Assembly (NCBI RefSeq): GCF_002109325.1
Contig: NZ_CP015348.1
Span: 2,667,501-2,731,500, forward strand
Direction: 5' to 3'
DNA: 64,000 nucleotides
From: Sporosarcina ureae
GTDB lineage: Bacteria > Bacillota > Bacilli > Bacillales_A > Planococcaceae
The notes beneath the pieces were generated by a model. It was not told where the DNA came from. It saw only the letters and a list, made by a program, of their open reading frames with translations, and made no database searches. Made by a program: the position numbers and the translations under genes. Of the stretch, positions 39,577 to 63,430 are shown piece after piece; within the stretch, counting starts at the first letter, position 1; each line of letters opens with the position of its first letter.

Positions 39577-39633
39577 TGTCGAAGGTAACTACATACTAAA
39601 GTGATAAAACACAGAGTGGAGTTGATTTCAAAG

Positions 39634-41901
39634 ATGTTATGCGCTTCAAAAAAGAATGTATTCGCCATTTTTAATTCTTTTCTTATCGCGACGTTAATTT
39701 GCCTCATTGTACTGCCAGTAAGCGCGAAAGCAGAAACGGTAAACCAGCGTTTCTCTGACGTAAGTAATGATTTCTGGGCAAAGGATGAAGTAACACAACT
39801 AGTGGAAGAAGGAATTATTAACGGATACCAAGATTTACAGTTTCGTCCAGGAATCAGTATTAAACGTGGACAGGCGGCAAACTTGCTGACCGTCGCTTTG
39901 GAATTACCCGAGGCTTCCTACCGTCCGATCTTTAAGGATGTCAGCGCAAAATCTTCCAACTTGCGTGGTGCAATGTCTACTTATGAAGCAGGCATATTTA
40001 AAGGAAAACCCGATGGTAACTTCGGTGTAAGCGATGAATTAACACGTGAACAAATGGCGAGTGTGTTAGTCAATGCTTTCAAATTAAAAGATACAGGTGA
40101 AACAGTACGCTTTACGGATGAGAATAAAATAAGTGAGTCTCACAGATACGGCGTAAAAGTACTTATGCAACACGGTATTACAACAGGTAAAGAGGACGGG
40201 TCATTTGCTCCGAAACTCCCTGTTAACCGTGGTTCATTCGCTGTATTTCTACATAGAGCAATGATTCAAGCAGGATTGCTCGAAAAACAGCAACCAATTG
40301 TTTTCAATAAAACACAGACAATGGGCAAATTCGATCCTATTCGATTTAATCAATTTATTACGGAAGTTCCACTGACACAAGAGGGACAAACATACTTGCG
40401 TTCCAATCACTACTTGTCTTTAGCGGCCAAGCGAGTGAAAGCACACGGACATGCGACGGATCATATTTATGTCTATGGTGTCAGTGAGAGAAAAAGCACA
40501 AGAGTTACTGTAACAAAACGTGAGTTGCCAAATGGCGACTACTTTACATTTGTTGAGTTGAGAAATCCGGATCGACTGCCGATTCGCGTCGATTTGGTAC
40601 GAATTGATGGGAATATTAAAACGAATAAAATAGAACGATTTGACAAATATCCTATGAAAAAAGATGTGGATGATACATTTGGCTTTGATATTGCAACTTC
40701 TCCTGTAGGTGTCCTTGAAACCATTTCACAGCAGGGAACAGGTCAGCAAATGATTTCGAAAACATATCGTTCACGTGAACTCGAGCTGAAGTATAATAAT
40801 GGCTCAGTTAGCCATACACGTGAATTACAGGATGAGAAGGAATCTTACAGTAATATTCTGATGGGCGATACCCGAGTATCGGTATATGAGTTGAACTCTA
40901 GAGGGTATGATGTAGTGGATCAATGGATTCTTTCATCCGATAAGAAGCTTTTTTCTTCAAATGAAAGATTAGATGCATGGCTTCGGGAATCGATTACCAA
41001 CTATAAAAAGCGTAATAAATGGTATACAGCTGAAGGTCCTTACAACAAGATGGCGACTACAATTGAACCGATGCCAGCTTCGGGTCGCGGATATGGACGC
41101 AATTTACTTTTGGTAAAAGAAGATCGTGTCATGTTGTTATACAACCAAACGAAAGAACGTTATTATGAAGATATTTTGCATAACTCCTTTACAAACTTAG
41201 CTGTTTTCAGAGGAAGCAAGCCTTATTGGGAAACGGAAGTTACGAGTACGTATTTGAAGAATTTATATAACTTCACAGCACCATTCGTTGACACGCGTTT
41301 CAATGAACAGATTGCATTATTCCTTTATAATGGCGGTAGCGCATTCAATCATAAAGATTACAACGACGGTTTACGTAACTATGCAAACTTGCTCGTACAG
41401 CAGCATAGAAAAGGCAATGTGAACTTCTTGTCTCCAACTGCCTATTATATTCCGGATTACTTCCCGGCAAAATCACAAGTGAAGACCCATACGTCTATGA
41501 ACCATTTACTTGGCGGCATGAACATTCTTTTGTTGGCATTCCAAGAATTCAATGATCCAGTGTATTTGGAAAATGCCAGTGCAATTGAAAAAGCCATTCG
41601 CTTTGAAGAGAAGAACTGGACTCGTTCTAACGGTGACATCTGGTATAAACGTGCACCGAATGGTCAGTTTTCAGGTACGGATTATGTCCATTTGACGTTG
41701 GAAGACTTGATTCATTCTTATGAAAAATGGTCACAGGTTGATCAATCAAAAGCCAAAGTATTCGAGCGCATGATTAAGTCGAAGGCGGGCTATTTGAATA
41801 GTACGAAGCAAGGGTATACTACGAAGATTAAAGAAGGCTTGAAACGAATCAATATGTCTAACTTGCTACCAGCAGGTAAAGAGTACACCGACGCATTATA
41901 A
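39634..41901 (+). CDS. SLH-anchored protein with a helical-toroid C-terminal domain
   Basis: 755 residues. Signal peptide about 1-35 (LPVSAKAE); three SLH domains about 37-215 (GIINGYQDLQFRPGISIKRG; IFKGKPDGNFGVSDELTREQ; GITTGKEDGSFAPKLPVNRG). Residues about 230-500 are beta-rich and unrecognised. The C-terminal 260 residues are helical with Trp/Tyr/Asn-rich motifs (NGGSAFNHKDYNDGLRNYAN, RSNGDIWYKRAPNGQF), reminiscent of glycan-active alpha/alpha toroids such as the glucuronyl C5-epimerase C-terminal domain. That likeness is tentative. The start is uncertain: ATG 39634 has GGAG 13 nt upstream; GTG 39601 has no site. Confidence 0.75.
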   Translation: MLCASKKNVFAIFNSFLIATLICLIVLPVSAKAETVNQRFSDVSNDFWAKDEVTQLVEEGIINGYQDLQFRPGISIKRGQAANLLTVALELPEASYRPIFKDVSAKSSNLRGAMSTYEAGIFKGKPDGNFGVSDELTREQMASVLVNAFKLKDTGETVRFTDENKISESHRYGVKVLMQHGITTGKEDGSFAPKLPVNRGSFAVFLHRAMIQAGLLEKQQPIVFNKTQTMGKFDPIRFNQFITEVPLTQEGQTYLRSNHYLSLAAKRVKAHGHATDHIYVYGVSERKSTRVTVTKRELPNGDYFTFVELRNPDRLPIRVDLVRIDGNIKTNKIERFDKYPMKKDVDDTFGFDIATSPVGVLETISQQGTGQQMISKTYRSRELELKYNNGSVSHTRELQDEKESYSNILMGDTRVSVYELNSRGYDVVDQWILSSDKKLFSSNERLDAWLRESITNYKKRNKWYTAEGPYNKMATTIEPMPASGRGYGRNLLLVKEDRVMLLYNQTKERYYEDILHNSFTNLAVFRGSKPYWETEVTSTYLKNLYNFTAPFVDTRFNEQIALFLYNGGSAFNHKDYNDGLRNYANLLVQQHRKGNVNFLSPTAYYIPDYFPAKSQVKTHTSMNHLLGGMNILLLAFQEFNDPVYLENASAIEKAIRFEEKNWTRSNGDIWYKRAPNGQFSGTDYVHLTLEDLIHSYEKWSQVDQSKAKVFERMIKSKAGYLNSTKQGYTTKIKEGLKRINMSNLLPAGKEYTDAL

Positions 41902-41907
41902 TGAACA

Positions 41908-41946
41908 AACACCATCTCCTTTAGTTCAGGGGATGGTGTTTTGTTT
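41908..41946 (+). terminator. Terminator of the SLH gene
   Basis: AACACCATCTCC pairs with GGGATGGTGTT, then a T-rich run. Confidence 0.85.
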
Positions 41947-42021
41947 TTAGTGTAGTAATAGAGTAAAGGGGAAGGCACCGTTGATTAGCACCGCCATTCC
42001 CATTGCAATCACTCTCCAAAT

Positions 42022-42061
42022 GAAAAACCACCATCTTCTAAACTGCGAGATGGTGGTTTCG
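42022..42061 (-). terminator. Terminator of the SLH-glucosaminidase gene
   Basis: Minus strand: GAAACCACCATCT pairs with AGATGGTGGTTTT, then Ts. Confidence 0.85.
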
Positions 42062-42069
42062 TTGATTGG

Positions 42070-44091
42070 TTAATTTACAAGTGTAGCTAAATCGGAACGG
42101 ATCCAGCCGTATGGTTCGTTGATTTGTGCACCTGGGTTGATGTCCATGCGTACTTTGTACCAAACAAAGCCGTCTGCACCGGTTGTACGATCTGTCACAA
42201 CTAGTGGATAGCCGAATGCTGCTAGATTACCTGGATGCTTAGGCTTATAAGAGAATAGAATATTATTCTTATTCGCTGCATCTGGACTTGTGCGGATATT
42301 AACTGCTGTATTGCCTGTATACGAAATCACAGCCAATTGTGCTTGGTTCGCGTCTTTGCTGCCTAGGAACTGATCGATGCGCCACATGTGACCTGCGATC
42401 TTACTTCCCCAGAAAGGATCGGATGCATACTTCATATTAAAGCCGACTGCCTTGTTGCCGGGAGCTGCGCCATTGGCATAAGCACCAAGTGGATTCGCAT
42501 AGTTTAAGTTAATGTAGCGAGTAATGAATGCATCGACACTTCTTGTTGGATTACCATAGACTTCGCCTTTATCAGGTGAAGAGTCGAATACGCGGATACC
42601 GAAAATATTATTTTTCTGCTGTGCATTGCCGCTCATCCCGTAATCACTTTCATGAATCGCTGTCGCTAATATGAACATTGCATTGACGTTATGCTTTTTC
42701 TCCATCTGTTTCACATACGTTCCAAGTCCAATTAGCTTCGACTTCGACGTAGCGTTTTTATAGCGGGCAATACCTGTTTTTTGTCTAGCAAGTAATGCAT
42801 TGGAGATGAAACGATCCAGTTCCTGTCCAGTGTAAGTGGAAGGCTGGCGTACCGATTGGAATTGGAAGTACGGATAATACGTAATGGTTGCTGCACCGTT
42901 TAATTCTGTAAAGTGGACACCATCGTTACTCGTATACGTTTGTCCTTTTTTCATTGTCGGAGAAGCAGGGCCGACTGTATACTCTGCGTAACTTCCTTTA
43001 TATTGTTTTGTTTTAGAATCGTATGTACGATAATAAGGTTGGTGAATGAGTAAGCCGTCATTCGTTACTTTATACTGACTTGCGCCTGTAGATAGTTGAG
43101 AAGGAATTAGGTCGATTTCTGCGTGTTTCGCATAATATGTATAGCCGCCTACTTCTACTACTACACGTTCCGGGCTACTGCCTACATAATCCAGTTCATA
43201 ACCTTTCTGGACATATGTGACTTCGTTTTTTAATGAAGTATCGCTATATAGCGACGTATACTGCTTAGGGTTTTCTGAAGCAAACGCCTGTCCTGACTTC
43301 ATTTTGATAATTTTATTATTAACAGAAATCGTCTGAACGATGGAAGAAGCGTTATACGCTGCTAGCGCATCTTCAAATGTAATGTACGACTCATCCGTGA
43401 CATTCAGTTGACTATTGGAAATCGAACTAACTTTATGCACTTTAGGATTTTCTGTACCGCCAACGTTTGTAGGAGGGCGAGTACTACCTTTTCCATCAGC
43501 GACTGCGAACATCCGAAATAGAAATGCAGAAGCATGTGCAATCGTTGCATTACTTGTTGGTTTGAAATATCCTTGATCACCTCGTATGATATTCAATGAA
43601 GAAGCTGCGGATACAGCGGGTACGAAGTTTGATGAAATTTTCTTGCTGTCTTTAAATTGAACCGTAGTGGATTTGATTGGAATTTCTAGGAAACGAAATG
43701 CCTTAAAAATCATTCCTGCCATTTGTTGACGTGTAATCTGCTGATTCGCTTTGAATGAACCGTCAGGATAGCCAGCTAAAATTCCAGCACCTGCAGCATT
43801 TTGAATCTCAATTGTACGGGAGTGGTTTACTTTCAAGTCATTAAAGGTATAGCGTGTCGAAGTAGGTAATTCCAATGAACGTGCAAGATAGGAAGCGAAT
43901 TCCCCTCGTGTAACCGCTCGATTGGGATAGACATTCCCTTTTGAGTCCTTTTGGATTACGCCTTTATCTACCCAAAATGTCAGCTCTTGCTGCATCTGAT
44001 GACCTGAGAAGTCATTTGCACTCGCTACCGGTGTGAAGACAGGAGAAGCTACCAAGAGCAATAGTGTCAGTAATGTTATCAAACGTTTCAA
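42070..44091 (-). CDS. SLH-anchored N-acetylglucosaminidase with SH3 domain
   Basis: 673 residues. Signal peptide 1-25 (PVASA); SLH domains about 28-195 (VIQKDSKGNVYPNRAVTRGE; ILAGYPDGSFKANQQITRQQ; a third degenerate). Residues about 430-590 are a GH73-type glucosaminidase, with catalytic Glu in TAIHESDYGMSGNAQ and KNNIFGIRVFDSSPDKGE. An SH3-like domain (about 605-672, VNIRTSPDAANKNNIL) ends the protein. It cleaves glycan strands of peptidoglycan while tethered to the wall polymer. Between SLH and catalytic parts lies an unrecognised region of about 200 residues. Confidence 0.88.
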   Translation of the reverse strand: MKRLITLLTLLLLVASPVFTPVASANDFSGHQMQQELTFWVDKGVIQKDSKGNVYPNRAVTRGEFASYLARSLELPTSTRYTFNDLKVNHSRTIEIQNAAGAGILAGYPDGSFKANQQITRQQMAGMIFKAFRFLEIPIKSTTVQFKDSKKISSNFVPAVSAASSLNIIRGDQGYFKPTSNATIAHASAFLFRMFAVADGKGSTRPPTNVGGTENPKVHKVSSISNSQLNVTDESYITFEDALAAYNASSIVQTISVNNKIIKMKSGQAFASENPKQYTSLYSDTSLKNEVTYVQKGYELDYVGSSPERVVVEVGGYTYYAKHAEIDLIPSQLSTGASQYKVTNDGLLIHQPYYRTYDSKTKQYKGSYAEYTVGPASPTMKKGQTYTSNDGVHFTELNGAATITYYPYFQFQSVRQPSTYTGQELDRFISNALLARQKTGIARYKNATSKSKLIGLGTYVKQMEKKHNVNAMFILATAIHESDYGMSGNAQQKNNIFGIRVFDSSPDKGEVYGNPTRSVDAFITRYINLNYANPLGAYANGAAPGNKAVGFNMKYASDPFWGSKIAGHMWRIDQFLGSKDANQAQLAVISYTGNTAVNIRTSPDAANKNNILFSYKPKHPGNLAAFGYPLVVTDRTTGADGFVWYKVRMDINPGAQINEPYGWIRSDLATLVN

Positions 44092-44351
44092 ATCAAAACC
44101 TCCTATATAAATCTCCTACTATTGTAGCAGAAAGTACTATCATTGGTAAGCATCATTTGGTATATTAATAGACTATTATTACACTAGACTTCTATAAAGT
44201 GACAGAAGTATATAGACAGATAGCTGCAGAAATATGGAATAAAGTATGTAATATACCATCTCAATATAAAATGATAAATATAGCAAAAAGCGACAATCTA
44301 TAATTATTCGAAAAGATGCAACGAATGCTTTCACTATTCCGTCCTAGATAG

Positions 44352-44360
44352 TGATATAAT
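44352..44360 (+). promoter_or_regulatory. Extended -10 promoter for the polymerase-like gene
   Basis: TGATATAAT (extended -10) ends 42 bp before the ATG; no good -35. The rest of the 44092-44402 gap is AT-rich with nothing recognised. Confidence 0.5.
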
Positions 44361-44402
44361 GCAACAAGGAACTAGCAAGCGTAGAAAGGGTTTTATAGAC
44401 TA

Positions 44403-45875
44403 ATGAATATATGGAAACAGCGATTGGAAAAACAATCCACAAGTACAATATTGGTTGCAGTAGCTGTGATGCTCATTGCATTATTGCTGCCTTCAAAAAT
44501 AGCATTGCTCGGCACGACCTTATTTTTTGTCTTATTTTCGATTATTAAACCACAGCAGAGTATTCTGTTCCTGGTCATCTATGTTAATATCCGACCTTTT
44601 TTGCTGGAAGTGAACAGTGGCCTAAAGTTAATAGGGGATTTAGTAATCTTTGTCGTATTCGCATGGACATTGTTCCACTACCGACATAATATTCGTTCTC
44701 TATTTACATTCAAATGGTTTGAGTGGTCTTATTTTGCTTTTATTTTATTCGGCTCAATTATAGGATTCTTACATGATGTCACACCAACGTCTATTATTTT
44801 CCAAGTTCGTACGTTTTTGATTATGTATTTGCTTTACTATACGATTTCAAGAATGACACTGACGAACAAATGGTTACAGCAGCTTGCATGGGTGACGGTC
44901 TGGTTGAACATTGTGATGTCGCTTCATGGTTTAGTAGAGAAACTGTCTTTGCGTCAGTTACTGCTGCCGGAAGAGTGGAAGTATAAAGTTTTATCTGCAA
45001 CAAACGCTGTGCGTATTTACGGACTGACGGGCAATCCGAACTCTTTGGCATTATCATTGTTCTTCGGACTCATTGCGGTTGTCTATTTGCAACACGTTTA
45101 TCAGCAGAATAAATACAAATGGACATTCCGTGTATTACTCGTATTGTTCTTTGGTATTCTAGTTCTTACCTATTCAAGGGGGACTTGGATTTCGGCAATT
45201 ATGTTTGGCGTCGTATTCATTCTCATGACGAGAAAATGGTATCTATTGAAACGACTAGTAATTGCCGGGGTTGCATCTATTATTTTAATTTACTATCCAG
45301 TAAACTTGGCTGTTCAATATATTACAGAGCTCGGTGTGACAGTAGATGAGAAGCCAAGTGGTGCGGGAAGTATCGGTGGGCGCTTCGGAGAAACATTTGA
45401 TGAAAAGAACTTGGCACTCATGACAGAGAGTGGACGTTTCTACTATATCCGTAAAGGATTTGAGATCTTTGGTGATCATCCTATAACAGGTACAGGATTT
45501 GGATCGTTCGGGGGTTCCGCCACGTTATCTTATGGTTCACCGATTTATGATCACTATGGCATTAGCTCGGATATATACGGTGGGAAGTACTTCTATTCCG
45601 ATAACCAATATATTCAAGTGATTGCGGAGACTGGTGTGATTGGCGTATTGATTTTCGCGGTCTTCTTGCTTAGCATGTTGTGGTTCTTCTGGAAGTCACG
45701 CCATACGAATTTCGGTGTGTTTATGATTGCACTGTGGTTCTCGACCGGTGTTTCTGGAATGTATTATAATATTTGGGAACTTAAAATGTATACGTTGTTT
45801 TACTTTATCTTGCTTGGCGCGTTTGTTGCGTTCAGTAAGCATCAGCAGGAAATATCAAAACCTACGAATGGGTAA
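44403..45875 (+). CDS. O-antigen ligase/polymerase-like membrane protein
   Basis: 490 residues with about 11-12 membrane helices. The Wzy/WaaL-type PF04932 signature region is seen in TYSRGTWISAIMFGVVF and the large external loop (about 300-400) with GTGFGSFGG and YSDNQYIQVIAETGVIGVL. The family polymerises or ligates lipid-linked glycans at the outer membrane face. Beside csaB and an SLH glycosidase, a role in assembling the secondary wall polysaccharide that anchors SLH proteins is plausible but inferred. AAAGGG precedes the ATG by 13 nt. Confidence 0.82.
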   Translation: MNIWKQRLEKQSTSTILVAVAVMLIALLLPSKIALLGTTLFFVLFSIIKPQQSILFLVIYVNIRPFLLEVNSGLKLIGDLVIFVVFAWTLFHYRHNIRSLFTFKWFEWSYFAFILFGSIIGFLHDVTPTSIIFQVRTFLIMYLLYYTISRMTLTNKWLQQLAWVTVWLNIVMSLHGLVEKLSLRQLLLPEEWKYKVLSATNAVRIYGLTGNPNSLALSLFFGLIAVVYLQHVYQQNKYKWTFRVLLVLFFGILVLTYSRGTWISAIMFGVVFILMTRKWYLLKRLVIAGVASIILIYYPVNLAVQYITELGVTVDEKPSGAGSIGGRFGETFDEKNLALMTESGRFYYIRKGFEIFGDHPITGTGFGSFGGSATLSYGSPIYDHYGISSDIYGGKYFYSDNQYIQVIAETGVIGVLIFAVFLLSMLWFFWKSRHTNFGVFMIALWFSTGVSGMYYNIWELKMYTLFYFILLGAFVAFSKHQQEISKPTNG

Positions 45876-45893
45876 TCCATTTGTAGGTTTTTT
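45858..45893 (+). terminator. Terminator of the polymerase-like gene
   Basis: AAAACCTACGAATGG pairs with CCATTTGTAGGTTTT, then Ts. Confidence 0.85.
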
Positions 45894-45974
45894 CTTTTGG
45901 ATTGAGTAATTGGGGGGAGTCGTTGCTTTGCGTTTCATTTATGGAGGCTTTAATTAAAGACTAGAAGGGTGGGG

Positions 45975-46121
45975 TGATCATAGAATCACGTTGAGCGCTC
46001 TATGTTGTTCGGTGACCGCTCATAGAAATGGCGTAACCGTTCTATACTGGTGGATGGCCGCTCATAGACTTGTGTTAATCGCTCTATCGCGCCTTGCAAC
46101 CGCTCATAGACACCAAACGAA
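45975..46121. repeat. 21-bp phased tandem array, seven units
   Basis: Unit cores start at 45975, 45996, 46017, 46038, 46059, 46080 and 46101, exactly 21 bp apart. Odd units carry CGCTCATAGA (first unit degenerate), even units CGCTCTAT; sequence between cores is not conserved. 21 bp is two helical turns. Because 21 is a multiple of 3, an open frame runs through it, but it has no gene features. Confidence 0.8.
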
Positions 46122-46269
46122 TTTACCAAAAGTCATCATTAATTTGCAAATTTCCCCTTTCTTTCTACCTTTTTCGTCCAAACGGTGCATGAAAACGTAG
46201 GCATTATTTGATAGACTAGAGATTGATAAAGAGTAGAAAAGGTGGAGTTGTGTTATCGGACAAAATACT

Positions 46270-48585
46270 TTGCTGTCTCGCACGAAGCGGAATGTAGTCA
46301 TTACCGCTATGTCGGCAGCTATGCTAATCTCGTTGCCATTTTCAGCGGCAGCCAGCACAAAGGTCGTTTCTAGTTACCCCGTGTCTTCTGGTGTTACTTA
46401 TTCTCACTATACATATTCAGCAAGCAGTCACATCAATCACATTGGTGTTGATTTAAGTGATCCGTTCACGAAATTGAAGATGGGACTTCCTTCGCCTATT
46501 TCGAGGACAGCCCCTACATTAACTTTGGCGAATCGTGATTCAAAAGAAGGGCATAGAGTAGTCGGTGCAGTAAATACTTCGTTCTTCGATATGAAAACTG
46601 GCGTGCCAATGTATTTGCTATCTGAAGGCAATGAAATTGTAAACGGTGGTGTCATCTCGAGTTCGAACTCTTACTATGTCAGCCAACCGATTGCATTTGG
46701 CGTGACGAAAGACGGACTTTCGGAAATTGATTACTTTAATTTAGGAGTCGAAGTCGGCGTTCATGGCAGTGTTTTTCAAATGACAGGTCTTAACCGTGAA
46801 CGACAAGCCGATGAAACGATGATCTTCACACCGCAGCATGTGAAAAACACGACAGGTTCGAATGAATTCGGCATTGAATTGGTCGTTGAAACGAATGAAC
46901 CGATTACGTCTACACATTATGGTCAGCAAGTGCAAGGTAACGTTGTGAAGGTACGTGGCTATGGAGATAAGAACCCTGTCACGATTCCAAAGAATGGCTT
47001 TGTTGTTTCGATTCACGGCAAAAAAGGTTTGGAGCGCTTTAAATCAGTGACTGTAGGAGATTCTCTTTCATTGAAACTATCAATTGACGATAAATGGAAA
47101 GACTCCGAATTCATGATGGCGAGTGGTCCGATGCTTGTTAAAGACGGAAAGCGTCATATTACAATGGATACAAATAATCCGCGTGCTACAGCGAAGACAG
47201 CAAGAACTGCTATTGCTATTAGTAAAGACAAAAAGCAAGTTCAAATGGTGACGGTTGATTCGAGAGCTGGATACAGTAACGGCATGTCTTTAACGCAATT
47301 CGCCGATTATTTAGTGTCACAAGGTTATGATCGTGCGTTGAACTTTGATGGTGGCGGGTCCACTACGATGGGAATTCGCAATTATGGTAGTAACCAAGTA
47401 GTATTGGCTAATCGTACATCCAATTCCGCTCAACGTAGCACTTCAGCTATTCTTGAAGCGGTAAGTACCGCACCAACAGGGCAACCGGCCTATGTAAGTG
47501 TATCTCGCCCTCAAATGGGAGAAATGTTAGTAGGCGCAACTGCTGATTTGAAAATTAATCATGTATTGGATGCATATTATAACCCGATAGTACCGAATCC
47601 TTCCCAGTTGAAAACAACCTCTGCAAAGGGAACTGTTGAAGGAACGGGTCTGAAGTATAAAGCAGTTCAACCAGGAGTAGACCGCATAAGCGTCAACTAT
47701 GGAGTAGCTGAACAATCCTTCCCGATTACGGTTGTTGATCAGCCAGCGAGACTTGACGTGAAAGCTTCGGCGACAAGCGTCAAGCCGAACGAGAAAATCA
47801 CATTTACAGCTACTCCGACAGATGCATCTGGTCAACCAATCATTTATCAGCCAGAGCAATTAACGTGGAGTGTTGCAGGGAATATTGGTTCGATCACTAC
47901 ATCTGGAACATTTGCGGCAATAAAAGCTGGAAAAGGACAAGTTCAAGCGACTCTCGGTAAGAAAGTGATTTCTGTACCCGTTGAAGTGAAGTCAACTGAA
48001 GCTCCGCCTGTCATTGACCCACCGACACCTGTACCACCGATTGTGGAAAATCCAAGTACTGAGTTATTTAAAGATGTGCCATTGTCTTATGCGTACGCAA
48101 CTGAAATCTACTTCTTACGCGATCGCGGTATAATTAATGGAGACACGGACGGGACATTCAATCCTGGTAATACGTTATCTAGAGAGCATGCAGCAGTCAT
48201 TTTAAGTCGAGCTTTTAATTTACCACCCGTTGAACAAGCGCGTAGAGAGTTCAGCGATGTTCCCAAAACACATCGTTATTACAATGAAATCAGTGCGATT
48301 GCGAATGCCAATATTGTAGGCGGTCATTCCGATGGGACGTTTAATCCTACTGGACAACTGACTCGTTCACAAATGGCTATGATTTTAGTGAAAGCTTATA
48401 ATTTAGAAGGAGAGTCTGCGCAGAAATTCATTGACGTATCTCCGCAACACGGTGCATACAAGCAGATTCATATTCTAGCCAATCACGGAATTACAACAGG
48501 AAACGAAAAAGGCGAGTTTATGCCTGGCCAACCGGTCAACCGTGCACAATTCAGTGCGTTCCTCTATAGAAGTATAGCGAAGTAA
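46270..48585 (+). CDS. SLH-anchored phosphodiester glycosidase (NAGPA/DUF2233)
   Basis: 771 residues. Signal peptide about 1-29; phosphodiester glycosidase domain about 60-395 (GAVNTSFFDMKTGVPMYLL; ASGPMLVKDGK; ARTAIAISKDKKQV; ALNFDGGGSTTMGI). Family members hydrolyse GlcNAc-phosphodiester links and exist in wall teichoic or polysaccharide contexts. Ig-like domains about 405-585, Pro linker, three SLH domains about 600-770 (GIINGDTDGTFNPGNTLSRE; IVGGHSDGTFNPTGQLTRSQ; GITTGNEKGEFMPGQPVNRA). The start is odd: the only in-frame start before the signal peptide is a TTG at 46270, 22 nt from the GGTGGAG site. Confidence 0.87.
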   Translation: MLSRTKRNVVITAMSAAMLISLPFSAAASTKVVSSYPVSSGVTYSHYTYSASSHINHIGVDLSDPFTKLKMGLPSPISRTAPTLTLANRDSKEGHRVVGAVNTSFFDMKTGVPMYLLSEGNEIVNGGVISSSNSYYVSQPIAFGVTKDGLSEIDYFNLGVEVGVHGSVFQMTGLNRERQADETMIFTPQHVKNTTGSNEFGIELVVETNEPITSTHYGQQVQGNVVKVRGYGDKNPVTIPKNGFVVSIHGKKGLERFKSVTVGDSLSLKLSIDDKWKDSEFMMASGPMLVKDGKRHITMDTNNPRATAKTARTAIAISKDKKQVQMVTVDSRAGYSNGMSLTQFADYLVSQGYDRALNFDGGGSTTMGIRNYGSNQVVLANRTSNSAQRSTSAILEAVSTAPTGQPAYVSVSRPQMGEMLVGATADLKINHVLDAYYNPIVPNPSQLKTTSAKGTVEGTGLKYKAVQPGVDRISVNYGVAEQSFPITVVDQPARLDVKASATSVKPNEKITFTATPTDASGQPIIYQPEQLTWSVAGNIGSITTSGTFAAIKAGKGQVQATLGKKVISVPVEVKSTEAPPVIDPPTPVPPIVENPSTELFKDVPLSYAYATEIYFLRDRGIINGDTDGTFNPGNTLSREHAAVILSRAFNLPPVEQARREFSDVPKTHRYYNEISAIANANIVGGHSDGTFNPTGQLTRSQMAMILVKAYNLEGESAQKFIDVSPQHGAYKQIHILANHGITTGNEKGEFMPGQPVNRAQFSAFLYRSIAK

Positions 48586-48632: not shown

Positions 48633-48706
48633 CTTGTCTTTTAAATACAATAAAAAAGGCCACTCTGCTATACTTGAAACAAATGACCTGTAGAGGATGG
48701 TTGAAA

Positions 48707-49855
48707 TTGAAAATAGGAATAGTAGGAAACTATGGAAACGACAACAATGGCGATGAAGCCATTTTATTAAGCATTATATCGCAAGTCACATCTACTTTTA
48801 ACGTACCGAGTGATGTGATTACCGTATTCAGCAATAATCCTGAGCAAACAGCAAAGCGCTATCAAGTGATGAGCGCACCTTTGTATTATAGAAAAGGAAG
48901 CTCAGTGAAAACATTTGGCGCAACGTATCTTAAAAATAAAAAGATCGTTAAAACATTTGACTTACTCATTATCGGCGGTGGCGGTATTCTGATGGATCTG
49001 TATAAAACAGAAGCCCCGTTATACGGTTCTTATGCGATGATGGCAAAAAACTCTGGCGTTCCTTATGTTGTGTACGGCTGTGGAGCAGGGCCACTCAATA
49101 GCGAATTAGGTAAATGGTTTATTCGTTATATGAGCAAACACGCAAACAGTATTTCAGTAAGGGATCCTGAATCAGCAGAACTACTGAAATCAATTGGAGT
49201 GAAAAAGTCCGTTGAAGTAATAGGAGATCCGGCATTTTCCTTAAAACAACAACGCAAAGAAATATCCGACAAGCCATTGAAAATTGGCGTAACCGCTGTC
49301 CCGTATTACCACGCGGGCTACTGGCCGGAGAGTAAAGAGGAAATTTACCAACAGTATATAGAAGGAATGGCGAGAAATTTGGACGAATTAGCAGCGCAAC
49401 AACCCGTCGAAATCACATTCTTTGCCACCAAATTCCCTCAGGATGCCGATGTAACAAAAGATATTCAAGCTCTAATGAAAAAAACGGAACAAACAACCAT
49501 TATCGATCATAATCTTTTACCGAAAGATTTATTAGAAATTACAGCTGAACAAGACATATTAATTGGTACAAGACTACACTCACTGATTTTGGCGACATGT
49601 ACATCAACACCTATCATCGCTGTCTGCTACCACCACAAAGTAACAGACTTCATGAAACTAGCAGACCTAACGGAAGTATCCATTCCAATTGGCGAAATGC
49701 ATAAAGCAAACAACCACTTCTCCAAAGCCTTCGAATCTCTGGCTACAGACTGGAAAGAAACATGCGCCAAAACAGAAAAACTTTCTACTTCTTTATATGA
49801 AGAAGCAATGAAAGGCACAAAACAATTTACTGCAGCTATAAAAAAGACCAAATAA
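48707..49855 (+). CDS. csaB: Polysaccharide pyruvyl transferase CsaB
   Basis: 382 residues, cytoplasmic. Signatures: GNYGNDNNGDEAILLSI at the N-terminus, LLIIGGGGILMD, VVYGCGAGPLNSELG, and LIGTRLHSLILATC near 300 (pyruvyl transferase/GT-B-like fold). CsaB adds pyruvate ketal to the secondary wall polysaccharide; that ketal is the SLH ligand in B. anthracis and Paenibacillus. Its presence among eight SLH genes is consistent. The TTG at 48707 is chosen because AGAGGATGG ends 6 nt before it. Confidence 0.85.
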   Translation: MKIGIVGNYGNDNNGDEAILLSIISQVTSTFNVPSDVITVFSNNPEQTAKRYQVMSAPLYYRKGSSVKTFGATYLKNKKIVKTFDLLIIGGGGILMDLYKTEAPLYGSYAMMAKNSGVPYVVYGCGAGPLNSELGKWFIRYMSKHANSISVRDPESAELLKSIGVKKSVEVIGDPAFSLKQQRKEISDKPLKIGVTAVPYYHAGYWPESKEEIYQQYIEGMARNLDELAAQQPVEITFFATKFPQDADVTKDIQALMKKTEQTTIIDHNLLPKDLLEITAEQDILIGTRLHSLILATCTSTPIIAVCYHHKVTDFMKLADLTEVSIPIGEMHKANNHFSKAFESLATDWKETCAKTEKLSTSLYEEAMKGTKQFTAAIKKTK

Positions 49856-62695: not shown

Positions 62696-63430
62696 TTATT
62701 TCACATCTATAAAGCGTTTAAAGCCCATGAAGTGTGAGCTCCAATAAGAAGAATCTAGTGAAGCGATTTCAATTTCTTTCGTACCCGCATGAATGAACTT
62801 ATTGTCTCCAAGATAAATACCGATATGTGAGATACCTGGTCGATATGTATTTTCAAAGAATAATAAATCGCCAACAACCGGATCTTTGATGAATACTGAA
62901 CGGTTAAAGAAACCGATTGTATCTTGTCTTGGTACTTTCACGCCTGCTTGGTTGAATGCATAATAGATGAACCCGCTGCAATCGAATCCTGCTGGAGTAA
63001 CGCCTGCCCATACATAAGGAGTTCCTAGTAACGGTTGCGTAAGATCTACTAATTTTTTGCCGAGTGCCTGGTTAGTAGCAGGTAAGCTAGGCTTAACTAC
63101 AGGTAAGTTTGGCTTAACCACAGGGGCGCTTGGTTGAATTACAGGTTTGATTGATGATAGGGAACCATGTAATGAATTAGTAGAAGAAACAGCTTTTGAT
63201 GAATTTACTTTATTTTCTACTATTAGTTTCTGTTTAACTTTGATATCATTAGAAGTGAGAGAATTCAGACGTTTTAGTTCAGTTACCGTAATCTTGTACT
63301 GATTGGAAATCTTGTAAAGAGTTTCTCCTGATTGCACGATATGCGTTTTTGATGCAGCAGCAACGCTACCGACCGATATGCTTGTTGCAAGCATAAGAGA
63401 GGCGATCGCGGCTAGGGCAATTTTCTTCAT
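62696..63430 (-). CDS. LysM-NlpC/P60 peptidoglycan endopeptidase
   Basis: 244 residues. Signal peptide about 1-27; one LysM domain about 30-73 (HIVQSGETLYKISNQYKITV); Ser/Pro linker; NlpC/P60 domain about 130-240 with Cys in GFDCSGFIYYAF and His in SHIGIYLGDNKFIHAG. It cleaves wall stem peptides. ATG at 63430 follows AAAGGAGA; the 19-residue upstream extension is rejected. It is one of three NlpC/P60 genes here but has no clear WalR box. Confidence 0.9.
   Translation of the reverse strand: MKKIALAAIASLMLATSISVGSVAAASKTHIVQSGETLYKISNQYKITVTELKRLNSLTSNDIKVKQKLIVENKVNSSKAVSSTNSLHGSLSSIKPVIQPSAPVVKPNLPVVKPSLPATNQALGKKLVDLTQPLLGTPYVWAGVTPAGFDCSGFIYYAFNQAGVKVPRQDTIGFFNRSVFIKDPVVGDLLFFENTYRPGISHIGIYLGDNKFIHAGTKEIEIASLDSSYWSSHFMGFKRFIDVK

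Follow-up and report, generated by a model that had tools for sequence, protein, structure and literature searches.

The window, the whole 64,000-nucleotide stretch of Sporosarcina ureae DNA analysed here, contains an array of seven 21-bp units that belongs to a family of dispersed chromosomal elements, with 52 loci and ~68 elements in the 3.38-Mb host genome (G000). We propose, with about even confidence, that these arrays are docking platforms for a putative sequence-specific DNA-binding protein and serve as local architectural or barrier elements. The array and its surroundings in the window are as follows.

44403..45875, plus strand: upstream gene, Wzy_C / O-antigen ligase family membrane protein (PF04932)
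45857..45897, plus strand: intrinsic-terminator-like hairpin of the upstream gene; the array begins ~80 bp past it
45915..45974, plus strand: 5' flank of the array, G/T-rich in the family as a whole, without conserved letters
45975..46121, plus strand: seven-unit array, 7 x 21 = 147 bp, a member of the genome-wide family
45975..45984, plus strand: unit 1 core, TGATCATAGA
45996..46003, plus strand: unit 2 core, CGCTCTAT
46017..46026, plus strand: unit 3 core, CGCTCATAGA
46038..46045, plus strand: unit 4 core, CGTTCTAT (variant)
46059..46068, plus strand: unit 5 core, CGCTCATAGA
46080..46087, plus strand: unit 6 core, CGCTCTAT
46101..46110, plus strand: unit 7 core, CGCTCATAGA (terminal unit)
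46111..46170, plus strand: 3' flank of the array, A/C-rich in the family as a whole, without conserved letters
46270..48585, plus strand: downstream gene, phosphodiester glycosidase (NAGPA, PF09992) with three SLH repeats (PF00395)

The core starts (45975, 45996, 46017, 46038, 46059, 46080 and 46101) are separated by 21 bp at every step, which bears out the seven exactly phased cores described in an earlier note on this DNA. The letters given there are correct for units 2, 3, 5, 6 and 7, but unit 1 is TGATCATAGA rather than CGCTCATAGA, and unit 4 is CGTTCTAT rather than CGCTCTAT. The two cores (..TCATAGA and ..TCTAT) do alternate in the window array, but the alternation recurs in only a few other copies and is not a rule of the family. 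In most copies, units 1 and 7 are mainly of the ..CATAG type, and units 2-6 are mainly CGCTCTAT (CTCTAT type). Single cores are common enough in the window, and it is the phased array that is rare. The window array scored E 1e-24 against a sequence-only array model, the E-values of which are rough. Tandem Repeats Finder did not report the window array, as expected because its spacers have diverged. A separate 2.6-copy tandem repeat with a period of 21 lies at window 63079-63133 (CAGGTAAGCTAGGCTTAACCA), and its letters are unrelated to the array.

Searches of the host genome with a two-unit pattern and with a three-unit pattern allowing <=3 mismatches gave 14 and 138 places, respectively, and 0 for the reversed control. 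The remaining loci were found with the sequence-only model, built from 15 arrays, and units were catalogued by core score. After trimming of spurious end units, exactly seven units were counted in ~60 of the ~68 elements; none had 4-6 units, and a few were expanded to 9-46 units. The step was 21 bp in 537 of 583 cases. The motif GCTCWWW, required three times at 21 bp, gave 238 + 115 genome matches vs 0 for the reversed control, far beyond chance, and all 353 exact three-unit matches fell within catalogued arrays. The catalogue is therefore complete for exact cores, and use of a seven-unit model does not account for the predominance of seven. When the reversed sequence was catalogued in the same way, the result was no more than four chains, each of three units and due to chance. 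The array edges are sharp, and the flanks outside the seven units carry essentially zero position-specific information.

The family motif is approximately TTAASYGCTCWWW followed by ~8 variable bp. In two species, GCTC approaches 2 bits in all seven units, and the next three bases (WWW) are 100% A/T. The spacer, which the earlier note took to be unconserved, consists mostly of free bases, but a weak TTAAS box is present family-wide just 5' of each core. A/T-rich (WW) steps recur with a 10.5-bp period, more strongly than in controls in which the 21 columns were permuted identically in every unit of an array (38 of 38 arrays; power at 10.5 bp 0.120 vs 0.068). A wedge model of static curvature gave no excess over the column-permuted arrays. 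Two known motifs were also considered and rejected: the DnaA box (TTATCCACA) differs at two positions, and B. subtilis Chi (AGCGG) is found in only some of the units, on their minus strand and with the wrong polarity.

G030, a sister species with ~86% identical flanking DNA, was compared over 59 regions. Most G000 arrays have a G030 counterpart that lies in the same intergenic gap and shares the strand but often differs in unit number; strand also agrees at nearly all loci shared with a third species, G018. Seven is the commonest unit number in both (45 of 94 arrays in G030, 23 of 62 in G018). When the twelve orthologous pairs with seven units in both species are compared, identity is 49% in spacers and 84% in cores, against 36% and 78%, respectively, in random pairs; DNA 60-160 bp from the arrays is ~84% identical. 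The 72 orthologous unit pairs agree without exception (100%) at G2, T4 and C5 of GCTC, while identity falls to 33-53% at spacer positions 9-18; unit spacing is equal in 65 of them, the remainder being off by 1 bp. Descent in place, and not replacement, is indicated by two features: 20-bp steps that orthologues share and spacer identity above that of random pairs. We interpret these comparisons as selection on the core and the helical phase that leaves the spacers free; repeated partial conversion between arrays is a less probable alternative. Single arrays can be gained or lost, because G030 and G018 carry a minus-strand array between convergent genes orthologous to window 39601-41901 and 42070-44091 that G000 lacks (window 41851-42120). 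The G030 copy is listed here.

L294, around G030:C1:2685155, minus strand: extra array of G030

The simplest account of these observations is a protein assembling on seven sites, because GCTC plus A/T would have to be read once every two turns, always from one helical face. The earlier note had likewise placed the sites on one face for a cooperative protein; the geometry stands, with a 21-bp step held while spacers diverge, three invariant core bases and 10.5-bp A/T steps, and it is consistent with binding that may be cooperative. The putative protein would occupy all seven sites, assembling over ~147 bp and bending or wrapping the DNA. As the arrays lie where transcription units end and shortly after terminators, such an assembly would most likely be a local architectural or barrier element, either a topological domain boundary or a roadblock or insulator between neighbours. 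The fixed number of seven, the constrained core and spacing, the kept position and strand, the gene-end location and the lack of an RNA fold all count in favor of such a docking platform.

The position of the arrays relative to genes was examined using neighbor ORFs called by simple longest-ORF rules; only the neighbors in the window were named by domain search. At least one gene 3' end adjoins 47 of the 52 loci, and the upstream unit is co-directed with the array in 41 (P 4e-5). There are 21 convergent, 20 tandem co-directed, 6 tandem opposite and 5 divergent loci, with convergent exceeding divergent sites (21 vs 5, P 0.002). Five loci with an apparent antisense upstream ORF were reclassed by hand as lying behind 23S-5S rRNA genes (placed by Rfam at one locus and by 5S positions at all five). 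Thus, five of the eight rRNA operons have a co-directed array ~115 to 230 bp past the 5S gene, and three have none; the five array copies are near-duplicates and not independent.

L070, L090, L095, L096 and L098: arrays behind rRNA operons in G000

At 40 of 52 loci the array is oriented with the leading strand (origin near 1.87 Mb, inferred from GC skew), a bias not cleanly separable from gene co-orientation; restricted to convergent and divergent sites, the count is 22 to 7, in classes drawn before the rRNA correction. The chromosomal distribution of the arrays is uneven: G000:C1 ~2.86-3.38 Mb is array-free, and there are almost no arrays in the corresponding part of G030.

These locations bear on the claim of the earlier note that the array controls the SLH-glycosidase gene. 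An operator at which a transcription factor regulates 46270-48585 would fit the position of the array, 149 bp upstream of the gene start, and the conservation in G030 of the stretch adjoining the gene. However, the genes next to the element at its 52 loci are unrelated, and 21 of these loci are convergent with no promoter downstream; moreover, the G030 orthologue, at the same place, has 16 units instead of 7, in near-identical 42-bp double units. As a general role, control of this gene is not supported, and an operator function at this locus is very unlikely. Three SLH-domain proteins are encoded within 9 kb (window 39601-48585). The gene that comes after them (48674-49855) is polysaccharide pyruvyl transferase-like, in keeping with the anchoring of SLH proteins to pyruvylated wall polymer.

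The co-directed units preceding 41 of 52 arrays would also suit an RNA-level element, in which transcribed 3' untranslated repeats are bound by an RNA-binding protein. We consider this highly improbable: the consensus fold of 15 arrays (RNAalifold) contained 0 pairs, the arrays had no match in Rfam, the window array begins ~80 bp past an intrinsic terminator, and a spacing of exactly two helical turns has no obvious meaning for single-stranded RNA.

A further candidate is DNA gyrase, which would wrap the 147-bp element at strong sites and relieve positive supercoils behind transcription units. In E. coli, the motif of gyrase spans ~130 bp with a GC periodicity of 10.75 bp, and gyrase sites cluster downstream of rRNA operons and in BIME-2, which binds gyrase (PMC6379681). 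The arrays resemble this motif in size (~130-150 bp), in ~10.5-bp GC/AT periodicity and in lying behind transcription units, five of eight rRNA operons among them. Gyrase accounts for length, periodicity and location but not for the invariant core. The gyrase motif is degenerate, without invariant letters, and read indirectly, whereas GCTC is near-invariant in every unit of the arrays. In addition, no distinct central cleavage region was seen in the arrays, which can reach 46-61 units, and the 10.5-bp signal is missing from the 21-bp arrays of two relatives described below. We therefore regard gyrase sites as improbable.

More weight must be given to a selfish or neutral dispersed repeat, that is, a seven-unit element spread by copying or recombination, with tandem expansion and no host function; we consider this unlikely, though well within the range of plausible explanations. 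Copying of the element does happen, because a ~232-bp block has recently dispersed in G000 to five loci in seven copies, and is also present as a tandem triplicate.

L082, L084, L109, L119 and L120 (G000:C1 751814, 863774, 2452164, 2828705-2829313 and 2859746): loci of the recent subfamily

Members of this subfamily have near-identical spacers, and at most copies the likeness reaches ~85 bp into the flanking DNA. At some loci whole elements are tandemly multiplied at steps of 164-262 bp, at others arrays are expanded as near-identical two-unit (42-bp) repeats, and presence within the genus is patchy. Against a selfish repeat, most loci are stationary across the three species, and the 21-bp step persists together with G2, T4 and C5 although the spacers are close to saturation; neutral decay would erode core and phase alike. 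The earlier note held that variable spacing or whole-unit identity in homologous arrays would indicate a plain microsatellite. Spacing proved to be fixed, but whole-unit identity is present in the expanded loci, including the sister-species orthologue of the window array.

The same observations count against the docking platform: whole-unit expansion would be superfluous for a fixed seven-site complex, dispersal of the 232-bp block means that copying contributes to the similarity, and tolerated insertions of any kind would also accumulate at gene ends. So does the lack of the GCTC motif in several close relatives. As G005 and G040 have 21-bp arrays of other kinds, each species would need its own protein or at least its own binding specificity.

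To follow the distribution of the arrays, relatives and other replicons were searched. Named GTDB relatives with the pattern are mostly Sporosarcina. Of 41 genomes sampled from the genus, 32 matched the model; the number of matches ranged from none in some genomes to ~100 in others. Arrays of 21 bp with variable spacers are also present in Fictibacillus, Planococcus, Evansella, Neobacillus, Alkalibacillus and Lysinibacillus, while most matches outside Bacillales are plain repeats. The reversed control pattern unexpectedly had many matches in other genera, at 21-bp arrays with other cores (e.g., TTATTCTCG, ATACTCGCG). A phage origin was rejected, as the matches to the pattern in 15 viral contigs are all plain repeats, and so was a plasmid origin, as no array match was found among 72,556 plasmids. 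No earlier description of the arrays was found in the open-access literature searched, and one may exist elsewhere.

A motif-free scan of 200 kb each of G005 and G040, which lack GCTC arrays, revealed five arrays at lag 21 and none at other lags of 14-33, all with cores other than GCTC. The G005 arrays (L332:12721, L337:3059, L339:9513) have a core near GCTTGCACTCA, approximately six units and a shared end like CAAGTCGGGACC. The G040 arrays (L340:8689, L342:19703) contain two alternating unit types, with cores CATKACAGTTT and AACTAAGCAACG, and their letters are unrelated to those of the window array. The 10.5-bp signal is present in most CTCG-core arrays, and absent in those of G005 and G040. 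The 21-bp step is thus common to these lineages and the core lineage-specific, and the arrays are candidate members of one family. We tentatively suggest a new Bacillales architectural element, a 147-bp seven-site wrapping platform whose 21-bp geometry would be kept across genera while the core changes by lineage, as if the specificity of a binder evolved together with its sites; this broader proposal is doubtful. Lineage-wise change of the core at a constant step would allow a DNA-binding specificity and all its sites to be traced through evolution. If a protein binds, the host genome would offer ~50 position-conserved, countable docking platforms at gene ends, with a geometry that predicts a specific assembly of seven in-phase sites spanning 147 bp. 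The separation of adjoining transcription units, or the management of supercoils, could then be studied in a clean natural bacterial system.

Comparison with known repeat families shows partial likeness to several. Iterons of plasmid origins are direct repeats of ~17-22 bp bound by Rep. The arrays share with iterons (cf. PMC5043065, PMC4980987) several short direct repeats at near-integral helical turns and a lineage-particular motif, and their step lies within the iteron range. Iterons differ in marking one replication origin with its cognate rep gene, whereas the arrays occupy 52 chromosomal loci at gene ends, match no plasmid, and have, at the window locus, Wzy_C and SLH/NAGPA genes and no rep gene beside them. 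The BIME/REP elements of E. coli are similarly dispersed, extragenic, biased to gene 3' ends and often present in multiples, but REP units are palindromic hairpins, whereas the arrays are direct repeats without stem-loops in strict 21-bp phase. CRISPR arrays contain near-identical repeats of ~23-50 bp with unique spacers, next to cas genes; here, the core is only 7-13 bp of a 21-bp unit, the neighbors in the window are not cas genes, and this identity was rejected.

Minisatellites (VNTRs) are tandem, and like them the arrays vary in unit number between species at some loci. They differ in that the arrays keep core and phase but vary their spacers: 8-12 bp per unit are near random in the seven-unit arrays, the whole unit is conserved in expanded arrays only, and unit number does not vary freely, as most elements have exactly seven. 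For pneumococcal BOX/RUP, we know of no 21-bp phase or seven-unit architecture. BOX/RUP are likewise small interspersed repeats of a Gram-positive chromosome (PMC3049150).

Finally, the arrays have polar flanks. The 60 bp 5' of the arrays are G/T-rich and the 60 bp 3' are A/C-rich, a pattern that fades by 100 bp, with G-C skews next to the array of +0.39 (5') and -0.53 (3'). Inverted repeats pairing the two flanks were rejected, as matched pairs scored no better than mismatched ones, and the flanks do not form a stem. In a test for cytosine deamination with a G000 outgroup, A>G (left) and T>C (right) were in excess near arrays and C>T was not, with small counts and poor alignment near arrays. 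The skew is absent from array-free gaps; it is present in G000, in G030 and in every gene-orientation class, and a weaker, similar pattern flanks arrays in other genera.
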